Shown here: piece by piece, positions 19,264 to 31,261 of the stretch
Numbering within the stretch: position 1 is the first letter of the stretch
How the letters are laid out: the number at the start of each line of letters is the position of its first letter
Assembly (NCBI GenBank): GCA_027490575.1
Contig: JAIXXV010000042.1
Coordinates: forward strand, 1 to 39,490
Direction of reading: 5' to 3'
DNA length: 39,490 nt
Source: a bacterium
GTDB taxonomy: Bacteria; Patescibacteriota; Minisyncoccia; Phycocordibacterales; CAIZLB01
Notes under the pieces: model-generated
Seen by the model: the letters and a program-made list of their open reading frames with translations, nothing else
The model's database searches: none
Told to the model about the DNA's origin: nothing
Program-made: the position numbers and the translations under genes

Positions 19264-19589
19264 TCCCCTGTAGCTCAGCGGTAGAGCAATCGACTGTGTA
19301 GGTTAACGCAGCTTCCGGTACGAAAGTCCGGTCGAAAAATAAGGTGAATTGCTGGAAGCCCATACTACGGTATGGGTAATCAGCAGCCAAGCTTAGCAAT
19401 AAATTGCTTTGAAGGTTCAGAGACTATCCCTAGCGGGAGTAGTCGTACGAAATGCACAATGCAAGCGTTCGACGAAGCGCCTTACGTCTAAACATCCATG
19501 TGGTGCATGACGATGATATAGTCCACACTGTCAGTAATGATGGATAAAGTGTAATCGATTGGTCGTAGGTTCGATCCCTACCGGGGGAG
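19264..19589 (+). tRNA. tRNA-Asn(GUU), exons 19264-19297 and 19552-19589, split by a group I intron
   Basis: Joined TCCCCTG TA GCTC AGCGGTA GAGC A ATCGA CTGTTAA TCGAT TGGTC GTAGG TTCGATC CCTAC CGGGGGA G folds as a full cloverleaf; anticodon GTT; CCA not encoded. Confidence 0.93.
19298..19551 (+). ncRNA. Group I self-splicing intron in the tRNA-Asn anticodon loop, no homing endonuclease ORF
   Basis: P AATTGCTGGAAGCCC (~19348), P5 CCCATAC/GTATGGG (19359-19365/19370-19376), Q AATCAGCAGCC (19378-), R GGTTCAGAGACTATCC (19414-19429), S GATATAGTCC (19515-19524). 5' exon ends in U, intron ends in G; IGS GCAG (19308-19311) pairs with exon CUGU. Confidence 0.95.
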
Positions 19590-21164
19590 CATAGAAGTGA
19601 TTTTAGACTCGGAAGAAGCTTTTGCCGCATTGGCAAAGGCTTTTTTCGGTTCGAAAATATTTTTAGACGAAGTTAGTCTTTCGTAGAGCTTTCGAACTGG
19701 CTCGTGCAATGTGTATGTGACTTCACCATTTTTTAACGTTATATCCTTGAAAATTGACTTAAGTAACATACGTTTTTCCTCGGCAGTACGTTCTTCATTT
19801 TTGTATATAGTTTTTGCCTTACGAGCCAATTCAAGGATATTAATGCCCAATTCAAAATACTTTGCCTCTTGAGTCTTGAGTTTGTTGATCTGATCAATAA
19901 TATCTTTTTGCTCGGACTGAAGTCTAATATTCTTTTCTTTCCAAAACACATCAGTAATGATTCCAGACAATCGGTCGTCATATAGACGATCAATCTTGTT
20001 CTGTAGACCTCTGTAACCACCCTCAAGGTTATCTAAGACTTCTTTCTTATATTTTATCTCGTCCTGATGGCTCTGGCGGATTCTCAAAACAATCTCTTGT
20101 GCTTCTTCATCTGTTATTGTTTCAAAAACTTCCATGACACCAACTAAACTTTCCTCTATAACTTCCTGTCTGGTGTATTTCTTCTGAGTACATCCATTAT
20201 AGTGAGTACAGTGACAATACACATGACCTTTCTGAACTTCGCTTGTAACCATTCCCTTACATTCACCACACTCAACCATCTTTGAGAACAAAAACATGTG
20301 CTTGGAATAGAATGGGGACTTTTTTCGTAAGCGTATCTCCTGTATCAAGTCAAACTCTTCTTGAGTACGCATTCTTTCATGTTTACCATTCTCATTTAGG
20401 ACCACACCATTATGGATCAAAACTCCATGGTAAAAAGGGTCCTTAAGAAATGACTCGATCTGACTCTTGTATATTTTTTTTCCGTAGCGTGAACGCAATC
20501 CTGAATCATAAGCGGCCTTAACTAACTTTTTCATCGTATATTCTCCAGTCATATAAAGCTCGCTCAGTCTCTTCCATAGCGGAAATGTTGCATCATCAGA
20601 TACGAATACTCGCTTACCCTTCTCTCCGATGCATTTATAACCAGCCTTGTATGCACCATGATAATATCCCATTAAAACTTTCTCCCTGATACCTTTTTTT
20701 GATTCTTCCGAAAGGTTTGCAATATATTTTTTGGCTATTGCGATCTCAATGTCCCATCTAAACTTTTCATCTGATTTTGCGTTTTTATGTATTACTAGGT
20801 TTTGTTTAACAAAATGAATCTTTCTTGAATCATCTTCCTCAATCCAATCATTGGCTACAATAGCGTCATAATAGTTTCTAGTAAGCCTGTCGACCTTTTC
20901 AACAACAAGGTTTTGTATATTGTTATCGACAATATACTCGATCATCTCGTTAAATATTTTTCTTAGTTTTTTACCACTGGCACTTTCAGAGGCAGCAAAA
21001 ACTTTTACTATCTTGTAGTTTTTTCTATCTGTATATTCAGTAAGAAGACGCTCTTGTGATGGCAAAGAGTAGCCAGTTTCTTCCTGTTCTTTTGTGGAAA
21101 CCCGACAATATATTGCGGCTGTGTTGTCATCTGCAACATTTTTTATAATTGTTTTATTTTTCAT
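19578..21164 (-). CDS. Large serine recombinase (integrase): resolvase N domain, Recombinase domain, zinc ribbon, coiled coil
   Basis: AAIYCRVSTKEQEETGYSLPSQ; VVEKVDRLTRN; CGECKGMV...CHCTHYNGC. The last codons lie inside the tRNA-Asn 3' exon. Confidence 0.93.
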   Translation of the reverse strand: MKNKTIIKNVADDNTAAIYCRVSTKEQEETGYSLPSQERLLTEYTDRKNYKIVKVFAASESASGKKLRKIFNEMIEYIVDNNIQNLVVEKVDRLTRNYYDAIVANDWIEEDDSRKIHFVKQNLVIHKNAKSDEKFRWDIEIAIAKKYIANLSEESKKGIREKVLMGYYHGAYKAGYKCIGEKGKRVFVSDDATFPLWKRLSELYMTGEYTMKKLVKAAYDSGLRSRYGKKIYKSQIESFLKDPFYHGVLIHNGVVLNENGKHERMRTQEEFDLIQEIRLRKKSPFYSKHMFLFSKMVECGECKGMVTSEVQKGHVYCHCTHYNGCTQKKYTRQEVIEESLVGVMEVFETITDEEAQEIVLRIRQSHQDEIKYKKEVLDNLEGGYRGLQNKIDRLYDDRLSGIITDVFWKEKNIRLQSEQKDIIDQINKLKTQEAKYFELGINILELARKAKTIYKNEERTAEEKRMLLKSIFKDITLKNGEVTYTLHEPVRKLYERLTSSKNIFEPKKAFANAAKASSESKITSMLPR

Positions 21165-21204
21165 AGTGTTTTGATGTTAGCTTACTTAAAACTATTAATA
21201 AAAT

Positions 21205-21478
21205 TGTGCATGAACAGGGTTACCCCTATGATGCTCTGGAGTGTTTTTAGTTTTCTTGTGCTCTGAGAAGCCCCCGAAAACCCGGAATATCTAACAAGAA
21301 GATGGAATACACGATGCGGACCCCCTTCAGAAGACTCATAGACCTATGGTCATTACACTTTTAGAGTCTTCCTATTTGTCCCATCCATATTCGGAGATTA
21401 TGCGATACAGATCAGACGGCTGGGCAGTAACCCTGAGAACTGTTTTCCCAGCTTTCGCATCTGTACCTCATAGATCCC
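21205..21478 (-). ncRNA. Candidate structured RNA between a small ORF and the recombinase gene
   Basis: Stems 21407-21412/21459-21464, 21419-21424/21447-21452, 21425-21428/21439-21442, 21330-21337/21364-21371; distal pairing 21215-21223/21427-21435. Confidence 0.5.
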
Positions 21479-21715
21479 TTATTTATTTGCCAACACATTG
21501 ATGTGTACAGTGTATGCTGGTTCTAATGGAGCATTTTTTACCTCTCTGCCCGCTAAAAGAGGGATTTCCTTGTGTTGTGCTTGGGATTTGAGTTTTGCTT
21601 TTTGTTCATCTTTATGATCAAGACGTGCAAGTAAATCAAAAAACTTTACGATTGATTGATCGACAACGCTTTGATTTTCATTTTTAGCAATATCTTGATT
21701 CATAGAATAAAACAA
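21479..21715 (-). CDS. Small hypothetical protein (probable start at the internal MNQDIAKNENQ Met)
   Basis: 78-aa ORF between two structured intergenic segments. Confidence 0.5.
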   Translation of the reverse strand: MFYSMNQDIAKNENQSVVDQSIVKFFDLLARLDHKDEQKAKLKSQAQHKEIPLLAGREVKNAPLEPAYTVHINVLANK

Positions 21716-21830
21716 ACCTACTCTGTCACCAGATTGGCAGGACGCTTTGCCGTTCTAGAAACAGAGTAGGTTCGGCGTCCTGAACCGTGGATAGGAAAAA
21801 CCCTATCCGATTTCAATTATCGGATAGGGT
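21715..21830. promoter_or_regulatory. Pseudoknot with overlapping alternative hairpins and a terminator
   Basis: Stem 21715-21726/21761-21772 (12 bp); loop-to-3' pairing 21738-21745/21775-21782 (8 bp); terminator stem 21801-21811/21819-21829; competing GGATAGG 21789-21795. Confidence 0.55.
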
Positions 21831-21857
21831 GTTTTGTGCGGTGCCGCATGAAGTATG

Positions 21858-22745
21858 CTATTTTGTTAACAACTCTAAATACTCCCTGTGAAGTTTCTTA
21901 AGTGCGTTATGAATCGTTTTATCGGATATTCTTTTTTGATATGGTAATCCGCTATTTTCCCATCTTGCGTACTCATTTCTAAACTCTCCAATTTGATTTT
22001 TAAGAAAGTTATTTGAATCAAAGTCACCTTCGACAATACGCTCACTCACCTTAACGTTTCCCATATTTTGAAATATCCTAAAAGCACATATCTTAAATGC
22101 TACATTCTTGGGTAAATGCTTTCTTCTCAAAGTAAGAATATCGATAATATTGTTGGCTTCTTCAAGTTTTTTCGATTGCTCCTTAGTTGCCTTAGTGTTT
22201 TTCACAAAAAATAGACGCACTCTTTCCCTAAGAAAATTGATATCAGATGTAGATATTTTTACTCTTAATAGTTCATTCGGGTTATGTTTAAAAAGCTCAA
22301 ATAGGCACGGATTAGCAAAAATTGTATCCTCGGCAGGCTCCTTATATAAAATAAAGTATTCAACTATAGGATAAAAATTGTATGACCAACCTTGAGGAAC
22401 GAGTATGTTGTTGTAAATAAGCTTGTGCAAGACATCTTCAACCTCTGGGTGGTCCCATAAATATCTAGATGCAACACCTAGATTCCAATTCTTGGGCATA
22501 AAAGGACCGTAACCGTAGTCAGAGTCGATTAGGTCTATTTTTGGGTTTAGTACAGGAATACCTGCGAGTTTTCGGACGGTAGAACATATTTTAGTAAAAG
22601 CCTCAATTTTTTCATCGGAAGTTAAAAACAAGTGCCAATCCACCAAGTCTTCATAGTGTTGCTCTTTTCTATCAATAACGTCTTTATGCATGAAGTTTCC
22701 CGATCGATTAGGAATCTTCTTCCTTTGTTTTTTGCGTCCATCCAT
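21858..22745 (-). CDS. Hypothetical protein of the mobile element
   Basis: 295-aa ORF followed by a strong terminator; no recognised domain. Confidence 0.7.
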   Translation of the reverse strand: MDGRKKQRKKIPNRSGNFMHKDVIDRKEQHYEDLVDWHLFLTSDEKIEAFTKICSTVRKLAGIPVLNPKIDLIDSDYGYGPFMPKNWNLGVASRYLWDHPEVEDVLHKLIYNNILVPQGWSYNFYPIVEYFILYKEPAEDTIFANPCLFELFKHNPNELLRVKISTSDINFLRERVRLFFVKNTKATKEQSKKLEEANNIIDILTLRRKHLPKNVAFKICAFRIFQNMGNVKVSERIVEGDFDSNNFLKNQIGEFRNEYARWENSGLPYQKRISDKTIHNALKKLHREYLELLTK

Positions 22746-22789
22746 GACACAAATGTAGCAAATTGAGGGTTACTTATAAACCCCTTTCT

Positions 22790-22921
22790 GGCGTTTAATA
22801 ACGCTAGAAAAACGCTGTCCGTAGCTGTTAATACTGCTAGATAACTGCTATGGCTCCGCTGTTAATACTGCGAGGAAACAGCGGAAGCTATTCCCTGATA
22901 ATACAGGGAAATAACAGGGAA
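22790..22921. repeat. Tandem array of four ~33-36 bp degenerate hairpin units
   Basis: GGCGTTTAATAACGCTAGAAAAACGC / AGCTGTTAATACTGCTAGATAACTGC / CCGCTGTTAATACTGCGAGGAAACAGCGG / TTCCCTGATAATACAGGGAAATAACAGGGAA. Confidence 0.75.
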
Positions 22922-23059
22922 AAGAGTGATTGTGATTCTATGACACTTGCTCTTGATTATGTCAATATATTATGGTATTGTCCCACCAGAACCGCACCTT
23001 GAAAGATGTCGGTTTTCTCAGTTTTCCACAACAACCAACAACCCAAATAGGAGGACCTT

Positions 23060-24232
23060 ATGTCTCAAAAAAATCAAAACTTCGGAGAGCCGATAGATCG
23101 GCTTCTTCGTAGCTACGAAGTCACAATGCAGTTTCTCTCTTTCGTGATTGAAATCTTCACAAAGGGACAGACGGGTCAGTTCACTGACCCTTTCTGGAAT
23201 CGGATCTTAAACGGTCCAGTCAAACATTGGCAAAGTTTTCGTAATGCTTTGCTCAAAGTTCACACTGATGGATTTGACGTTGAAAAATACGTTGGACCGA
23301 CACACGATAGTCATCCTCAAAACATGAAGGGGTTCGAGTTCACCCAGTCACGCTTGATGGCAATGCGTGTTGCTGAGTGGACAAAATCCTCTCGCAGAGT
23401 TTACCGTGTGCCAAAGGACCTTCAGTTACTGCTGGCAGCGACAAGTCTCGAAGACGTCGACTGGTCCATGATCAAATGGCCTTTTGAATCGCTACTCATT
23501 TCTCTCGAGGAGCCGTTGGTTTTTCGAGGGAAGACAATCGATGCTATCTTGATTGCGAGAGAAACTGTTTTTGGTCATGAAGTCATGGCTATCGAAACGA
23601 TTGCCACTGATTTGCCGACTATGGAGTCAGTTTTCATCGGTGATCAACGTTCAAGGATCGAAAAGGCGATCCAAAAGGGCGACAAGGCTTCACTGGATTA
23701 TGCAAAAGAAAAACTTGCATCCGCCATCAAGAATCGCATGAATGGTGGCGGCGAAATATGGCTGACAAAAAAAGCCTGTTTCGAACCCGGAGGATTCGCT
23801 TCGAGATTTGAAGAACTTGATCTCGGAGAGGCAGATGAAACCTCAGCTTCAAAGGTGGTCTTCAGGATCGTCTTCGGGTTGATGCTCTACCTGCAATCTC
23901 GTCCAACAACGGAACTTATTCCAAAAGGATGGGAGACGTCAACGTTTGAACGGCGAGAAGGTCCGAGTCGTGTAATCAGACTTGCATCGGAGGTTTGTGT
24001 GGTAAAAAGCATCTACTCACTGACTAGTGCAGAACGAGAGGTGCTTGAGCCAATTCTTCGTGGTGGTTATGTGGAGGTTGCTCCGCACCATCGTGAGGGT
24101 CACTGGCGTCGTCCACCCGGAAAAGGATATGACCCGAATCATCCAAAGACAGTATGGGTCCGTCCGACAATCGTAAGGCGTGACAAACTGGCTGATGGAG
24201 GATTGCCTCTCGGTAGCACTGAGGTCGTCTGA
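23060..24232 (+). CDS. Hypothetical cargo protein with C-terminal HHREGHWRRPPGKGYDPNHPKTVWVRPTIV motif
   Basis: 390-aa ORF with RBS-like AGGAGG (23050-23055) and a downstream terminator. Confidence 0.75.
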   Translation: MSQKNQNFGEPIDRLLRSYEVTMQFLSFVIEIFTKGQTGQFTDPFWNRILNGPVKHWQSFRNALLKVHTDGFDVEKYVGPTHDSHPQNMKGFEFTQSRLMAMRVAEWTKSSRRVYRVPKDLQLLLAATSLEDVDWSMIKWPFESLLISLEEPLVFRGKTIDAILIARETVFGHEVMAIETIATDLPTMESVFIGDQRSRIEKAIQKGDKASLDYAKEKLASAIKNRMNGGGEIWLTKKACFEPGGFASRFEELDLGEADETSASKVVFRIVFGLMLYLQSRPTTELIPKGWETSTFERREGPSRVIRLASEVCVVKSIYSLTSAEREVLEPILRGGYVEVAPHHREGHWRRPPGKGYDPNHPKTVWVRPTIVRRDKLADGGLPLGSTEVV

Positions 24233-24748: not shown

Positions 24749-24811
24749 GATTACTATAGGTGAACGCTATTAATAATCAGTAGGACCTAAATGTAGTGAC
24801 TTTATACAGAT

Positions 24812-24960
24812 GGGTAGCCAAACTGGTTCACCCACTATTCCTCAAATCGCACAAAGGCGGTCTGATTTGTGGCAGCTTAACTACCCGTCAGTATCCGCAA
24901 ATCAGACGAAAATGCCTCGTGTGTGCAGAGTTTGAGGAATAAAAACTATTGTGGGTGAAC
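24812..24960. ncRNA. Candidate structured RNA / regulatory element upstream of the restriction operon
   Basis: Perfect stems 24826-24835/24951-24960 (10 bp), 24836-24846/24931-24941 (11 bp), 24861-24869/24898-24906 (9 bp); GGGTAG 24812-24817 complements loop CTACCC 24881-24886. Confidence 0.55.
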
Positions 24961-25037
24961 ATAATAAATATAGCATAAACTGAGCTTAAAGTTAATTGGC
25001 AAAGTCAATCAAAGTAAAGTATACTAAAAGCACGTAT

Positions 25038-25223
25038 ATGAAAGCCGAGAACGATTTTTACACTACAGTCGAATTGGCAGAAATGCTGAAGATGAACGTA
25101 ATGACGATCTACCGATATATCAAATCGGGCAAACTTGTTGCACACAAGTTCGGTAAAGAATATCGAGTTTCAAAGATCGAACTTGATCGCTTTCTAAAAT
25201 CAACAAAGACACATGGCAAATAA
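25038..25223 (+). CDS. Excisionase-family helix-turn-helix DNA-binding protein
   Basis: FYTTVELAEMLKMNVMTIYRYIKSGKLVAHKFGKEYRVSKIELDRFL; start may be upstream at 24996. Confidence 0.85.
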   Translation: MKAENDFYTTVELAEMLKMNVMTIYRYIKSGKLVAHKFGKEYRVSKIELDRFLKSTKTHGK

Positions 25224-26850
25224 TCCTCCACAAAATAAAAAAAGGCTCAATGACTGCTCACAAGATGAGTTGATCGATATTATTAAGCAACTGCGAAAAA
25301 GAAAGCGATACGGTCTAGTTTGGGAAGAAAAACCTGAGCGTGTTGTGGACCAATGCAAAAAAGAGTTACCTGTACTTGATCAAGATCAAGACATGGCTAT
25401 CGAGAAAAATCCAGCAGGAAGAACTAACTTGATGATCGAGGGTGACAATTATCATGCCCTGTCAGTACTCAACTACACTCACGCTGGAAAGATAGATGTA
25501 ATCTATATCGACCCTCCTTACAACACTGGGAGCAACGATTTTATGTACAACGATAGTTATGTCGACAAAGAGGATAGCTTCCGACACAGCAAATGGCTTT
25601 CATTCATGAACAGTCGCCTCACTTTGGCGAAAGGTCTGCTTTCAAAAGATGGCATTATTTTTATATCAATTGACGACAATGAAGTCGCACAACTAAAACT
25701 ACTATGCAATGAGGTTTTTGGTGAACAAAACTTTGTAGGAACAATTACTTGGGAAAAACGTACAAAAGCTCAGAACACGAAAACTGCCAGAGATATGTTT
25801 CAGACAAAGACTGAGTACATACTCGTATACAAAAAAAGTACCGATAAAATCAGATTCAACCTCGAGGTGTCTGGAGAAAAGGTATACGACCTTGAAGATA
25901 AAAAAGGTCTATATAGACTTAAACATGTAGAAGAAATGTCTGCTGTCGGTATGCGAGGAAGACAAACCATGGTTTTTGATATCAATGGAGTATCTCCCAG
26001 AAAAGGATATCAGTGGAAAATCGGAAAGGATCAAATAGAAGAGTATAAAGCCAGAAAAGATATTGAGATTATAGATGGAAAGGTGTATTTAAAGATGCGA
26101 CCTGATGACGAGATTAATCAGAAGTTCCTACCATTTTGGTCACACTTCTTCGAGAAAGATACATACGGCACAGCCGAAAAAGGTAAAACTGAACTTAATG
26201 AAGTATTAGGAACCAACGAACACGGATTCGAAACAGTGAAGCCAGTGAACCTGATTAAGAAATTGCTATTTCATATCAACAGGGGTAGAAACGAGGTTGT
26301 CCTAGACTTTTTCGCAGGTAGTGGCACAACAGCTCAGGCAGTAATGGAACTCAACAAGGAAGATGGTGGTTCACGACAATTTATATTGGCAACAAACAAT
26401 GAGAACGGTATTACAGAAAAGATAACTTACCCACGAATAAAAAAGGCTTTCTCAAAGAGCGTCAACAAAGACTCTGTATCAGCAAACCTCAGATACTTCC
26501 GAACATCCTTCGTGACAAAGAATGATGTATCAGACGACACACGCCGTGAACTGGTCCGAAGATCAGTTGAGATGATTTGCGTACGTGAAAATACATTTAC
26601 AAAGAAGTATGACAACAAAGACTACAAGATATACAGCGATGGAAAAGTTTCAACGGGAGTGATCTTCGACCTCGACAGCATCGAAGAGTTTAAAGAGAAA
26701 ATTGATAAGCTAAAGTTACCTGCTCGACTCTATGTATTCTCACTCTCGAATGATACTTACGAGTCTGACTTCGCAGACTTGGAGGTAAGGCATAAGCTTT
26801 GTGCTATACCTGAGTCAATATTAGAAGTGTACCGTAAACTCTTTATATAA
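25213..26850 (+). CDS. mod: Type III restriction-modification DNA methyltransferase (Mod, beta-class N6-adenine)
   Basis: VIYIDPPYNTGSNDF (motif IV) precedes VVLDFFAGSGTTAQAVME (motif I). Confidence 0.92.
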   Translation: MANNPPQNKKRLNDCSQDELIDIIKQLRKRKRYGLVWEEKPERVVDQCKKELPVLDQDQDMAIEKNPAGRTNLMIEGDNYHALSVLNYTHAGKIDVIYIDPPYNTGSNDFMYNDSYVDKEDSFRHSKWLSFMNSRLTLAKGLLSKDGIIFISIDDNEVAQLKLLCNEVFGEQNFVGTITWEKRTKAQNTKTARDMFQTKTEYILVYKKSTDKIRFNLEVSGEKVYDLEDKKGLYRLKHVEEMSAVGMRGRQTMVFDINGVSPRKGYQWKIGKDQIEEYKARKDIEIIDGKVYLKMRPDDEINQKFLPFWSHFFEKDTYGTAEKGKTELNEVLGTNEHGFETVKPVNLIKKLLFHINRGRNEVVLDFFAGSGTTAQAVMELNKEDGGSRQFILATNNENGITEKITYPRIKKAFSKSVNKDSVSANLRYFRTSFVTKNDVSDDTRRELVRRSVEMICVRENTFTKKYDNKDYKIYSDGKVSTGVIFDLDSIEEFKEKIDKLKLPARLYVFSLSNDTYESDFADLEVRHKLCAIPESILEVYRKLFI

Positions 26851-26854
26851 AAAC

Positions 26855-29146
26855 ATGAAACTAAAAACCTATCAAATAAATGCGGTACAAAAACTTTACA
26901 CCAAATCACTTGGTCTCTTAACCAAGAATGGTATTCGAAATGCCGTTTTCAAAGCACCAACAGGATCAGGTAAAACAATAATGATGGCAGAGTTCCTGTC
27001 TCAGATGGCAAAAGCTGAGTTGCCTAATAAATATGTTTACCTTTGGATCTCAAGTAACAACCTGCATAACCAAAGTAAGGAAAAACTAGCAGGATACCTT
27101 ACAGACTCTCGCTACGCTTTTTCTCTTTTGGATGAAGTGACCGATACACAGTTTGAAGAGAATCAGGTTGTGTTTGTAAACTGGGAGAGTCTTACAAAAC
27201 AGGATAAAACAACTGGAGAGTTTATAAACACTCTCATGCAGGATACGGAAACGGACCGAAGTCTTCCAAGTCTTGTTACTGCAAGCAAAGAAGCGGGACT
27301 AGAAATCATCTTGGTAGTTGATGAAAGTCATTACCACTATTGGTCAAAGAAATCACAGGAATTGGTCCAGAGTGTTATCGGACCAAAACTCATCATTGAG
27401 GTTTCTGCTACCCCTGCGATCATCCCAACACCTGAAGAACTCGAAGCTGAAGATGCGGCGTTTATTTCTGTTAAGTTCGAGGATGTAGTTAATGAGGGAA
27501 TGATTAAAACATTTCCGATCATTAACGAGGCAATCTCAAAATATAGCGATTTTCAGAACACTGCCGACGAAGTGATCATAGATGCCTCAATAATCAAGCG
27601 TAAACAGCTCGTAGAGGCTTATAGAGCAGAAGAAACGGAGGTAAATCCGCTACTTCTGATCCAATTGCCGAGCGAATCACAATCTACCAGTGCTTTGGAC
27701 AAATCAAAGCTCGAGGAGGTAGAAACCTTATTGAAAGATAAGTACGGCATTACTGTTGCAAACGGCAAGCTAGCTGTTTGGCTTTCTGAAAGAAAAGATA
27801 ATGTTGAGGGTATTGAGAAGATTGATTCAGAAGTAGAAGTTTTGATATTCAAACAGGCTATTGCTCTTGGTTGGGACTGTCCTCGTGCTCAGATACTCGT
27901 GATGTTCCGTGATATTAAGGTTGAGCAGTTCGAGATCCAAACTATCGGTCGTATCATGCGTATGCCCGAGGCTAAGCATTATGACAATGATGTTCTCAAT
28001 CAAGCATACGTCTATACAAACATTGACCGTGTTTCTGTTGCTCAGGACGGCACAAGTGAAAACTACTTTAAGATTCACAGAGCTATGAGAAGTGATTTAT
28101 ACAAAGACATCAATCTTCCTTCTGTGTACCTACGTCGAATAGACTTTGGTGATCTGACACTTTCCTTCAGAAAACTATTCATTGATGAAGCTAATAAATA
28201 CTTTGGAATAAAGTCTAGCGATTCTACTAAGGTTGCAAAAGGAAAAGCTGATGAAAAACTAGAGCTACTTCCTCAAGAACTCACAAAGACAATTATCTCT
28301 GATGCAATAATTGAGAACCTTGATGAACAAGTTAAGAAAGAAATATTTGGTCTAGGTAAAGCAACTTTCGGCGTATCACCTGATGAGATTAAGCGAAGCT
28401 ACGAGATATTTGCAAAAGCTACCTCTTTACCATATGCACCTGTTCGCTCGCACACAAAAATCCAGCAAGCAATATATGATTGGTTTGATAAGGTCCTAGG
28501 GTACGAAAAAGTAAGTCGTATAGAGATACAGCGAATTGTTGTGTGTTCAGTAAATAATCAAAAGATATTTAAACAAATAATTGAAGCTGCAAAGAATCGA
28601 TTCAAAGAGGTTTCTAAGGAAGAACAACAAGCTAAACAGCAAAAGAAAGAAAAAGTATGGAACGTACCAGAGGTTGATTACTTCGGTGAGAACTATGAAC
28701 TGGTATCTGCTTCAAACTGTGCGACTGTTTTCGCTTTGGATACAACTAAAACACTTTTGAATAAGAAGCGATCGTCTCAAGAATCGAGCTTTGAAAAGTT
28801 ACTAATGGGATCTAAAGATGTAACTTGGTGGTATAAGAATGGCGAAGCAAAAGAAACTTACTTTGCCGTTGCATATACTGACCCGGACACTGGATACAAC
28901 CGATCATTCTATCCAGACTATATCGTTCAGTTTAAGAGCGGCGATATCGGTATTTATGACACTAAGTCTGGAATGACAAGAACAAGTAAAGAAACATCTT
29001 CTAAGTCTGATGCTCTACAAAAGTATGTGTCAAAAAATAAAAAACTTGTAGGTGGAATTGTCTCTGAAAGTTCTGCTGGCTGGTATGTATTCGCTGGTAC
29101 AAAATACAATGCGGACCTTAAAGACTGGGAACGTCTAAAAATATAA
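26855..29146 (+). CDS. res: Type III restriction enzyme Res subunit (SF2 helicase plus C-terminal nuclease-like motif)
   Basis: FKAPTGSGKTIMMAEF, VVDESHYHYWS, IQTIGRIMRMPE; C-terminal YPDYIVQFKSGDIGIYDTKSG. Confidence 0.92.
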   Translation: MKLKTYQINAVQKLYTKSLGLLTKNGIRNAVFKAPTGSGKTIMMAEFLSQMAKAELPNKYVYLWISSNNLHNQSKEKLAGYLTDSRYAFSLLDEVTDTQFEENQVVFVNWESLTKQDKTTGEFINTLMQDTETDRSLPSLVTASKEAGLEIILVVDESHYHYWSKKSQELVQSVIGPKLIIEVSATPAIIPTPEELEAEDAAFISVKFEDVVNEGMIKTFPIINEAISKYSDFQNTADEVIIDASIIKRKQLVEAYRAEETEVNPLLLIQLPSESQSTSALDKSKLEEVETLLKDKYGITVANGKLAVWLSERKDNVEGIEKIDSEVEVLIFKQAIALGWDCPRAQILVMFRDIKVEQFEIQTIGRIMRMPEAKHYDNDVLNQAYVYTNIDRVSVAQDGTSENYFKIHRAMRSDLYKDINLPSVYLRRIDFGDLTLSFRKLFIDEANKYFGIKSSDSTKVAKGKADEKLELLPQELTKTIISDAIIENLDEQVKKEIFGLGKATFGVSPDEIKRSYEIFAKATSLPYAPVRSHTKIQQAIYDWFDKVLGYEKVSRIEIQRIVVCSVNNQKIFKQIIEAAKNRFKEVSKEEQQAKQQKKEKVWNVPEVDYFGENYELVSASNCATVFALDTTKTLLNKKRSSQESSFEKLLMGSKDVTWWYKNGEAKETYFAVAYTDPDTGYNRSFYPDYIVQFKSGDIGIYDTKSGMTRTSKETSSKSDALQKYVSKNKKLVGGIVSESSAGWYVFAGTKYNADLKDWERLKI

Positions 29147-29149
29147 TAT

Positions 29150-30010
29150 ATGAGTAAGGACGCAGCCAAAACTATAGCCGAAGAAATAATTGAACGAAGT
29201 GGAAACTCTTTTCATTCTAAAGTCGTCAAAAAACTAAGAGAATGCGGATGGAATGTTTTGGTCAGTCCTCATTATAGCGACAACTTTACAGACAAGCCTC
29301 GAGAGATAGATATTATTGCTGAGAAAAAGTTTGATGTTAACGGTTTTGTGCATGGGTGGCTTGGAACTTTAAATGTGAGGTTATTCATCGAATGTAAGTA
29401 TATAAATGGAGAAACCGTGTTTTGGTTTGATACTAAAGATCAAGATCGTGCAATCGATAGAATCATGCGTGATACAAGCATGGAACATCCAAGCAAGAAT
29501 GTGATGATTCAAAAACATCACTATTATCAGGACGTGCCTGTGGCAAAACTTTTTTCATCTGATAAAAGTCGGGGTGAAGATAATGAAATAATAAGTAAAG
29601 CTATAAATCAAAACTTAAACGCAACAGTTTACTATCGAAACAGAGGCGACCTTAAGCTTGTGAAAACCCCGCACGGTTACATAGAAAATATTCTTAGCCA
29701 TGTATCTTACCCATTAATAGTGGTAAACACACTTGAAAAGTTCCATTCAACAGATATGGATGGCAGTGGAAAAATATCACCCATAAATGAACCGTTCCAG
29801 CTTGAGGTCAACTACGCTTATACCGATAAGGACAGAAACGCACACAGTGAATATTTTTTAATTGATGTGACATCTTTGGACAAACTTCCAGACTTTTTAG
29901 ATAAAACAATTGAAAAAATGGATGTTCCTGCCATATCAGAGAAACTATCTTGGGACGAAAAAGTGAGTCGTAGAAACAATAGAGCTGATATACAAAACTT
30001 TTACGATTAA
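29150..30010 (+). CDS. PD-(D/E)XK nuclease-like protein
   Basis: GNSFHSKVVKKLRECGWNVLVSPHYSDN...REIDIIAEKK...RLFIECKYI. Confidence 0.65.
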   Translation: MSKDAAKTIAEEIIERSGNSFHSKVVKKLRECGWNVLVSPHYSDNFTDKPREIDIIAEKKFDVNGFVHGWLGTLNVRLFIECKYINGETVFWFDTKDQDRAIDRIMRDTSMEHPSKNVMIQKHHYYQDVPVAKLFSSDKSRGEDNEIISKAINQNLNATVYYRNRGDLKLVKTPHGYIENILSHVSYPLIVVNTLEKFHSTDMDGSGKISPINEPFQLEVNYAYTDKDRNAHSEYFLIDVTSLDKLPDFLDKTIEKMDVPAISEKLSWDEKVSRRNNRADIQNFYD

Positions 30011-30016
30011 AACCAT

Positions 30017-31261
30017 ATGAAAAAGGACGCAAAAAATCAAAAAACAAAAGATGAGGTTGTCGTCAAGATAACCAAGAAAGGTTACGGTCTCAAGCATATG
30101 GGTAGAGATGTTACCTATGAGGGATTTAAAGATACCCTGAAAGAGGTTGAGGGTGTTGGTAAAATGCCAAAGTTCGTTGTCAAAGACGGAAGTTTTGTTG
30201 TCGGTAAAAACATTTTAGACTCACTTCTTTTTGTTTTTGGAAAAGACAAGTTCACACTTAAAATATCCAAGACAGCCAAAGAAAGCTCTGTGGTAAAATC
30301 AAAAGGAATATCAAACATAACTCTCACATTTATCGATCTTAAAAAGCTACAGGACCAGTGTCTTACTGAGACAGCAGACATTAAGAATGATGTTGTGGTT
30401 AAGTTATTCAGTAAACTATTTCCAAAGCATTACAAAGAAACAACCTCATCTTTCTACCGAGCTGGTTCACTAGAGAGATGGATACCCGCTGACGGAAATG
30501 TCGCATTATCGATTGGTGATAAAGAACGAATCAGAAAACTGTATTCAAAAGCTATTGTGGGTGGTTTAAGTACAGCAGGAGGATCATCAGTAGAAATCGC
30601 AAAAGAAAAAGCTGTGTTCCAGCTTTCAACACTCGAGGCTTATGCAGATGCTTTGGAAAAAAGAATAAAGAAGTCTTCAACCTCAACAAAGAAAGATGAG
30701 GCAGATTGGCAGAAATACATTAAAGAACACATAACAAATATCAAAGAAGAGTATATCCAAAAGTTCGAGAAGCTAAATATTGGTGGTATTGATCGTGCAA
30801 GCTTTCCTGATTTTCTGCTTCTAACTCAGGACAATTTTATTGATGTTCTTGAGATTAAAACACCAAATACTCCGTTAGTGTCATACGACTCAAATCATCA
30901 AAACTATTACCTTTCAACAGAGGTTTCGAAAGCGGTAGCTCAGGCAGAAAAATACATTGAGCAAGTAAGTAAGAAGTCGCTAGAGGTCGAAAACTACCTT
31001 ATGAAGACCCTTAAGATGCCTTTGGGTATAGTAAGACCGCAGGGGTTGGTCCTAGTTGGATCAGATGCCAATCTGTCTAAGCAAACTAACCCTGATAAGG
31101 CTCGACAGGACTTTAGACGCTTGAGAGGAGCGTATAAGGATATCAAGATCGTAACTTACTCAGAGCTACTTTCAGGGCTTAGAAACCGCATTGGCGTATT
31201 AAAGAAGCTCACCAAGATTAAAACTCCTCGAGCGAAAGGTAAAGCCAAAATAAAGAAATAA
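30017..31261 (+). CDS. Shedu-like (DUF4263) nuclease-domain protein
   Basis: FPDFLLLTQDNFIDVLEIKTPNTPLVSYDSNHQNYYLSTEVSKAVAQAEKYIEQV ... PQGLVLVGSD. Confidence 0.75.
   Translation: MKKDAKNQKTKDEVVVKITKKGYGLKHMGRDVTYEGFKDTLKEVEGVGKMPKFVVKDGSFVVGKNILDSLLFVFGKDKFTLKISKTAKESSVVKSKGISNITLTFIDLKKLQDQCLTETADIKNDVVVKLFSKLFPKHYKETTSSFYRAGSLERWIPADGNVALSIGDKERIRKLYSKAIVGGLSTAGGSSVEIAKEKAVFQLSTLEAYADALEKRIKKSSTSTKKDEADWQKYIKEHITNIKEEYIQKFEKLNIGGIDRASFPDFLLLTQDNFIDVLEIKTPNTPLVSYDSNHQNYYLSTEVSKAVAQAEKYIEQVSKKSLEVENYLMKTLKMPLGIVRPQGLVLVGSDANLSKQTNPDKARQDFRRLRGAYKDIKIVTYSELLSGLRNRIGVLKKLTKIKTPRAKGKAKIKK

Follow-up and report, generated by a model that had tools for sequence, protein, structure and literature searches.

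The 39,490 nt stretch analysed here (the window; contig JAIXXV010000042.1 of a Patescibacteriota genome of 772 kb in 42 contigs, GCA_027490575.1) carries a mobile element. Between two genes of this element, at 21715-21830, lies a cluster of nested inverted repeats, which raises the question of which strand carries the corresponding RNA structure and what it does. The first-pass annotation saw a switch-like region, acting on the minus strand as the terminator of a 295-aa gene and the leader of a small ORF, or on the plus strand as an independent transcript. The minus-strand reading is the best supported: a terminator of the 295-aa gene (T1) is followed by the small-ORF leader, which contains an attenuator-like structure.

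The element encodes a large serine integrase (19578-21164, minus strand), and the 3' end of this gene overlaps the 3' end of an intron-interrupted tRNA gene. Upstream of the integrase, the minus strand carries, in this order, a structured RNA (21482-21389), the small ORF (ATG at 21703), the pseudoknot, T1 and the 295-aa gene (21858-22745). The tRNA gene at the integration site (19265-19591) is split by a group I intron (RF00028), and group I introns also adjoin the integrase in three other loci (L014, L015 and L030). Defence-like cargo is found at 24996-31261 (an HTH gene, a type III methyltransferase, a type III restriction helicase, a 286-aa gene and an SduA (DUF4263) homolog). A LOOT RNA (RF03000) is encoded in the related element L014 (4361-4482, plus strand).

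The 295-aa gene is an orphan. It has no usable relatives in the genome contigs, plasmids and phages searched, and 384 genomes from the phylum gave a single marginal partial match. At the DNA level, searches of the same genome and of the family returned self matches and one marginal match only. A scan of 21000-23200 for sigma70-like promoters lists no minus-strand match of this type within 21000-22300.

The small ORF, annotated at first pass with 78 aa, is indeed a gene, since ORFs of the same family precede related integrases, but the family alignment makes ATG 21703 the most likely start, which gives 74 codons (21479-21703, minus strand). It is the first gene of the integrase operon. While single-sequence patterns found no integrase in the genome contigs, whole-genome searches revealed a clade of relatives at 35-58% identity. 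Five loci found via the integrase (L013, L014, L015, L016 and L043) encode a member of this small family (the FFDLLA family, FFD..LA..D..D) upstream of it. Used as the lone query in the phylum, the 78-aa ORF gave weak partial matches only, and genus searches around three of the relatives added no new family members. In L013, L014, L015 and L016, the coding region of the small ORF itself contains a strong hairpin past the FFDLLA codons, with the loop TTTCAGCTC or similar; in L015, the loop of this hairpin also matches the downstream sequence GGAGCTGAAACTAAA.

All stems named at first pass are present in the sequence. The core of the main stem, P1, is a perfect 12-bp helix (21715-21726, AACCTACTCTGT; 21761-21772, ACAGAGTAGGTT). 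Read on the minus strand, the P1 stem lengthens to 15 pairs (21774-21760 with 21727-21713; 13 Watson-Crick and two G-U), and the hairpin at 21713-21774 (-35.2 kcal/mol) ends 9 nt before the ATG. The intervening nucleotides (21704-21712) form a T-rich tract, TTTTATTCT. This tract is imperfect, but nine of the 12 nt preceding the ATG are T, so that the window has the hairpin and U-tract of an intrinsic-terminator attenuator. P1 is missing from the terminator scan that lists T1 because its loop exceeds the limit of that scan. The 8-bp helix P2 (21738-21745, CAGGACGC; 21775-21782, GCGTCCTG) makes the structure a pseudoknot: on the minus strand, 21782-21775 (CAGGACGC, just 5' of P1) pairs with 21745-21738 (GCGTCCTG, in the P1 loop). 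With the 12-bp core, the connecting segments L1, L2 and L3 measure 2, 15 and 11 nt. As duplexes, P2 has -13.8 and P1 -22.3 kcal/mol; the competition between them that we consider below is argued on steric grounds. T1 (21796-21830, minus strand) has a stem of 12 bp rather than the 11 bp first counted (21830-21819 with 21811-21800, followed by TTTT). It is terminator-like on both strands, with a U-run on each (-18.9 kcal/mol on minus, -19.3 on plus).

Two further hairpins were thought to compete with these stems. GGTTC/GAACC (21769-21773/21782-21786) and GGATAGG (21789-21795) do exist in the sequence. The former, however, is too weak to exclude P1 (-5.3 kcal/mol on minus and -7.4 on plus, against -32 and -29 for the P1 hairpin). 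The GGATAGG hairpin is likewise weak compared to T1 (-11.9 on minus and -11.1 on plus, against -18.9 and -19.3 kcal/mol), and it cannot prevent T1 termination on the minus strand because CCTATCC is transcribed after the U-run of T1; competition is thus possible on the plus strand only. Neither hairpin is evident by eye in the relative L066.

The arrangement before the small-ORF ATG was compared across the six family loci. A hairpin of at least nine Watson-Crick pairs that ends at most 20 nt from the ATG, with at least six T in the last 12 nt, occurs in four of them (the window, L043/L066, L015/L068 and L016/L067). L014 has a weaker hairpin 20 nt from its ATG, and L013 has none. Across 1.12 Mb of related DNA, the background rate is 25 of 1227 non-overlapping ORFs (2.0%), or 17 of 697 (2.4%) when an intergenic gap is required; four of six then corresponds to P of about 3-5e-6, for a test that was framed after the loci had been viewed.

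These loci would also be compatible with plain tandem terminators, in which case P1 is a second intrinsic terminator or a translation-blocking hairpin, and the P2 complementarity is a functionless product of chance. Two of the four loci (L067 and L068) fit this well, having hairpin, T-tract and ATG with loops of 5-7 nt and no P2. On the other hand, P2 is improbable by chance in each of the two loci with this helix. Given P1, shuffling yields p values between 0.004 (with 16 nt of upstream sequence) and 0.012 (with 40 nt) for the window and 0.0007-0.003 for L066. In addition, the loop lengths of the two pseudoknots match. We therefore consider tandem terminators with a fortuitous P2 a doubtful explanation, albeit one to be taken seriously.

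The recurrence in L066/L043 is one of architecture. The window reads CAGGACGC CG AACCTACTCTGT (15 nt) GCGTCCTG (11 nt) ACAGAGTAGGTT TGTTTTATTCT ATG, and L066 reads TCAATGGGG GTG TCCGTTAATCGCT (14 nt) CCCCATTGA (8 nt) AGCGATTAGCGGA TTTTT ATG. For P2, L1, P1, L2 and L3, the lengths are 9, 3, 13, 14 and 8 in L066/L043, compared to 8, 2, 12, 15 and 11 in the window. Order and lengths agree, while the sequence differs throughout. What recurs is thus the pseudoknot and not a terminator alone, the latter being the outcome named at first pass as speaking against a switch. A descriptor scan of both strands of the 1.12 Mb gave three matches, all with a T-rich tail: the window and L066, each at the small-ORF ATG, and an AT-rich repeat. 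This third match (L067, 1398, minus strand) lies beside a dnaJ-like gene and was rejected. Four first-order shuffles gave 3, 0, 2 and 3 matches, none with a T-rich tail. P2 is carried by two examples only, and its support is an architecture recurring in two loci with unalignable sequences, not counted covariation. That a second element forms the same fold at the corresponding position from a sequence unrelated to this one suggests an RNA gate by which the element is kept silent. A 9-mer, CCTACTCTG, is shared with L066 and L119 and was discarded, as a rough estimate puts such a recurrence within chance expectation for 1.12 Mb. L066 also contains, at about 4970-4748 (minus strand), a leader with TTGACA-16-TAAAAT and several hairpins. 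The loop TCTCACGA of one leader hairpin matches TCGTGAGA of a neighbouring terminator-like hairpin, which is another mutually exclusive pairing.

Most likely, the P1/P2 region is a terminator/attenuator that shields the integrase operon against read-through, P2 being a putative modulator. The leader of this operon, formed by the small ORF and the integrase, would end with 21782-21704 (minus strand). Transcripts from the 295-aa gene would reach T1 and then P1, the 3' arm and T-tract of which extend up to the small-ORF ATG. P1 would terminate transcription and, in read-through RNA, would keep the ribosome start site closed, leaving the integrase operon silent as long as the element is integrated. 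In both the window and L066, a terminator-like hairpin is already present further upstream, so that the transcript arriving from there could end without P1. The lack of a sigma70-like match on the minus strand within 21000-22300 also favours this reading. Since P2 is just 2-3 nt away from the foot of a stem that has at least 12 pairs, full P1 and full P2 are unlikely to coexist, and P2, which pairs the sequence just 5' of P1 with the P1 loop, probably opens the P1 base next to the T-tract. By this steric argument, P2 would act as an antiterminator, under some form of control: its formation would weaken the terminator and allow transcription and translation to pass. For the account as a whole (P1 as terminator and closure of the start site, P2 opening P1, the operon off in the integrated element), we estimate a probability of roughly 0.6. 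Closure of the start site would involve GTAGG (21721-21717, in the 3' arm of P1), the sole Shine-Dalgarno-like sequence seen, which is fully paired in an ensemble model of the full leader. At 13 nt from the ATG, it is a poor Shine-Dalgarno sequence, and it is still mostly paired once the 5' arm is removed in silico, so that a translation block is suggested only weakly.

Leader attenuators and intrinsic terminators that close a downstream start resemble this region in having a terminator-like hairpin and a T-tract just before the start codon, and possibly a competing pairing. Here, in contrast, the second pairing is a pseudoknot, made by the P1 loop with an upstream sequence, the T-tract directly adjoins the ATG, and no leader peptide, tRNA or ligand motif was recognised. 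For the tnp gene of ISPpu9, the 5' UTR is reported to be folded, and it was suggested that this UTR is opened by an antisense RNA, exposing the ribosome-binding site (PMC8450116). In both cases, mRNA structure limits the expression of a mobile-element recombinase (as proposed here for the window). The antisense RNA, however, is a feature of ISPpu9, while the structure in the window heads an operon of a small ORF and a serine integrase and adds a terminator-like tail and a pseudoknot.

The nested inverted repeats might instead function as DNA, being a binding or recombination site (cruciform, attachment site or site of an excision factor). They are close to an integrase within a mobile element, and small ORFs beside integrases often encode excision factors. 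The integration site, however, is 2 kb away, next to the tRNA gene at the 3' end of the integrase. The T-tract is strand-specific and placed at an ATG, and the two pseudoknots have their architecture in common but not their sequence, unlike a protein site. This makes a DNA-level function improbable. We also rank low a separate plus-strand transcript that would span about 21710-21830, terminate at T1 and possibly be antisense to the 295-aa gene. T1 is terminator-like on that strand too, the distance between a -10-like TAGAAT (21703-21708) and P1 agrees with that in the promoter-led RNA class described below, and L066 likewise has ACCTACTCTG after a promoter-like sequence. But the promoter scores just 8/12, reading of the L066 sequence revealed no counterpart on that strand at its pseudoknot, the model of the promoter-led class (R2) has no match at this place, and the recurring T-tract and ATG lie on the minus strand; such a transcript is accordingly very improbable. 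The preQ1 and SAM-II riboswitches are likewise H-type pseudoknots located close to a terminator or a start codon, and the likeness to an attenuator noted at first pass is supported. The stem here differs from theirs in having 12-15 pairs. A ligand-binding riboswitch controlling the operon is hardly to be expected, as there is no meaningful Rfam match up to E = 10 and no conserved ligand-binding core is shared by the two available pseudoknots.

Two further RNAs from related integrase modules are supported by covariation. A rod-like RNA, with a 30-pair rod, is encoded between the small ORF and the integrase (21389-21482, minus strand) and is also present in L070, L069 and L120. A model built on three elements (R1) found the fourth, L120 (E = 3.9e-14). 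Across the four sequences, pairing holds in 95.8% of cells, and both sides have changed in 14 of the 30 pairs, which is above all 500 shuffles; this holds for an alignment that was fitted to the structure. Rfam has no meaningful match at 21150-21900 or at 24780-25010.

The second RNA is a promoter-led pseudoknot leader class. As a MAFFT alignment misaligned its P1 arms, a covariance model built from L130 and L075 (R2) was used instead. R2 matches L066, L114, L122 and, weakly, L072. Among five sequences, again in an alignment fitted to the structure, 19 of 27 pairs are changed on both sides. Pseudoknot pairings with AAGGGG../..CCCTTT occur directly before integrase-type ORFs in L111 (9441-9523, plus strand) and L113 (upstream of 8472, minus strand). 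Other members are followed by a small ORF, which in several cases has a hydrophobic stretch. In the window, 24960-24812 (minus strand; upstream of a 143-aa ORF) is probably a member, as judged by architecture only (promoter-like TTAACT-17-TATATT, P1 GTTCACCCAC/GTGGGTGAAC and a 14-nt pseudoknot pairing). An R2 search of 70 sources at E <= 1 returned no match in the window, neither there nor in the 21715-21830 region.

More speculatively, a yet undescribed set of pseudoknotted leader RNAs might control these integrase modules, with P2 as a signal-dependent antiterminator at the small ORF that licenses excision or transfer; we regard this as a tentative extension that is rather less likely than not. 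To our knowledge, little is known about how mobile elements are silenced in the reduced genomes of Patescibacteria-type organisms. The proposed recurring RNA gate and the two further structured RNAs provide concrete sites at which the control of excision and horizontal transfer can be tested.
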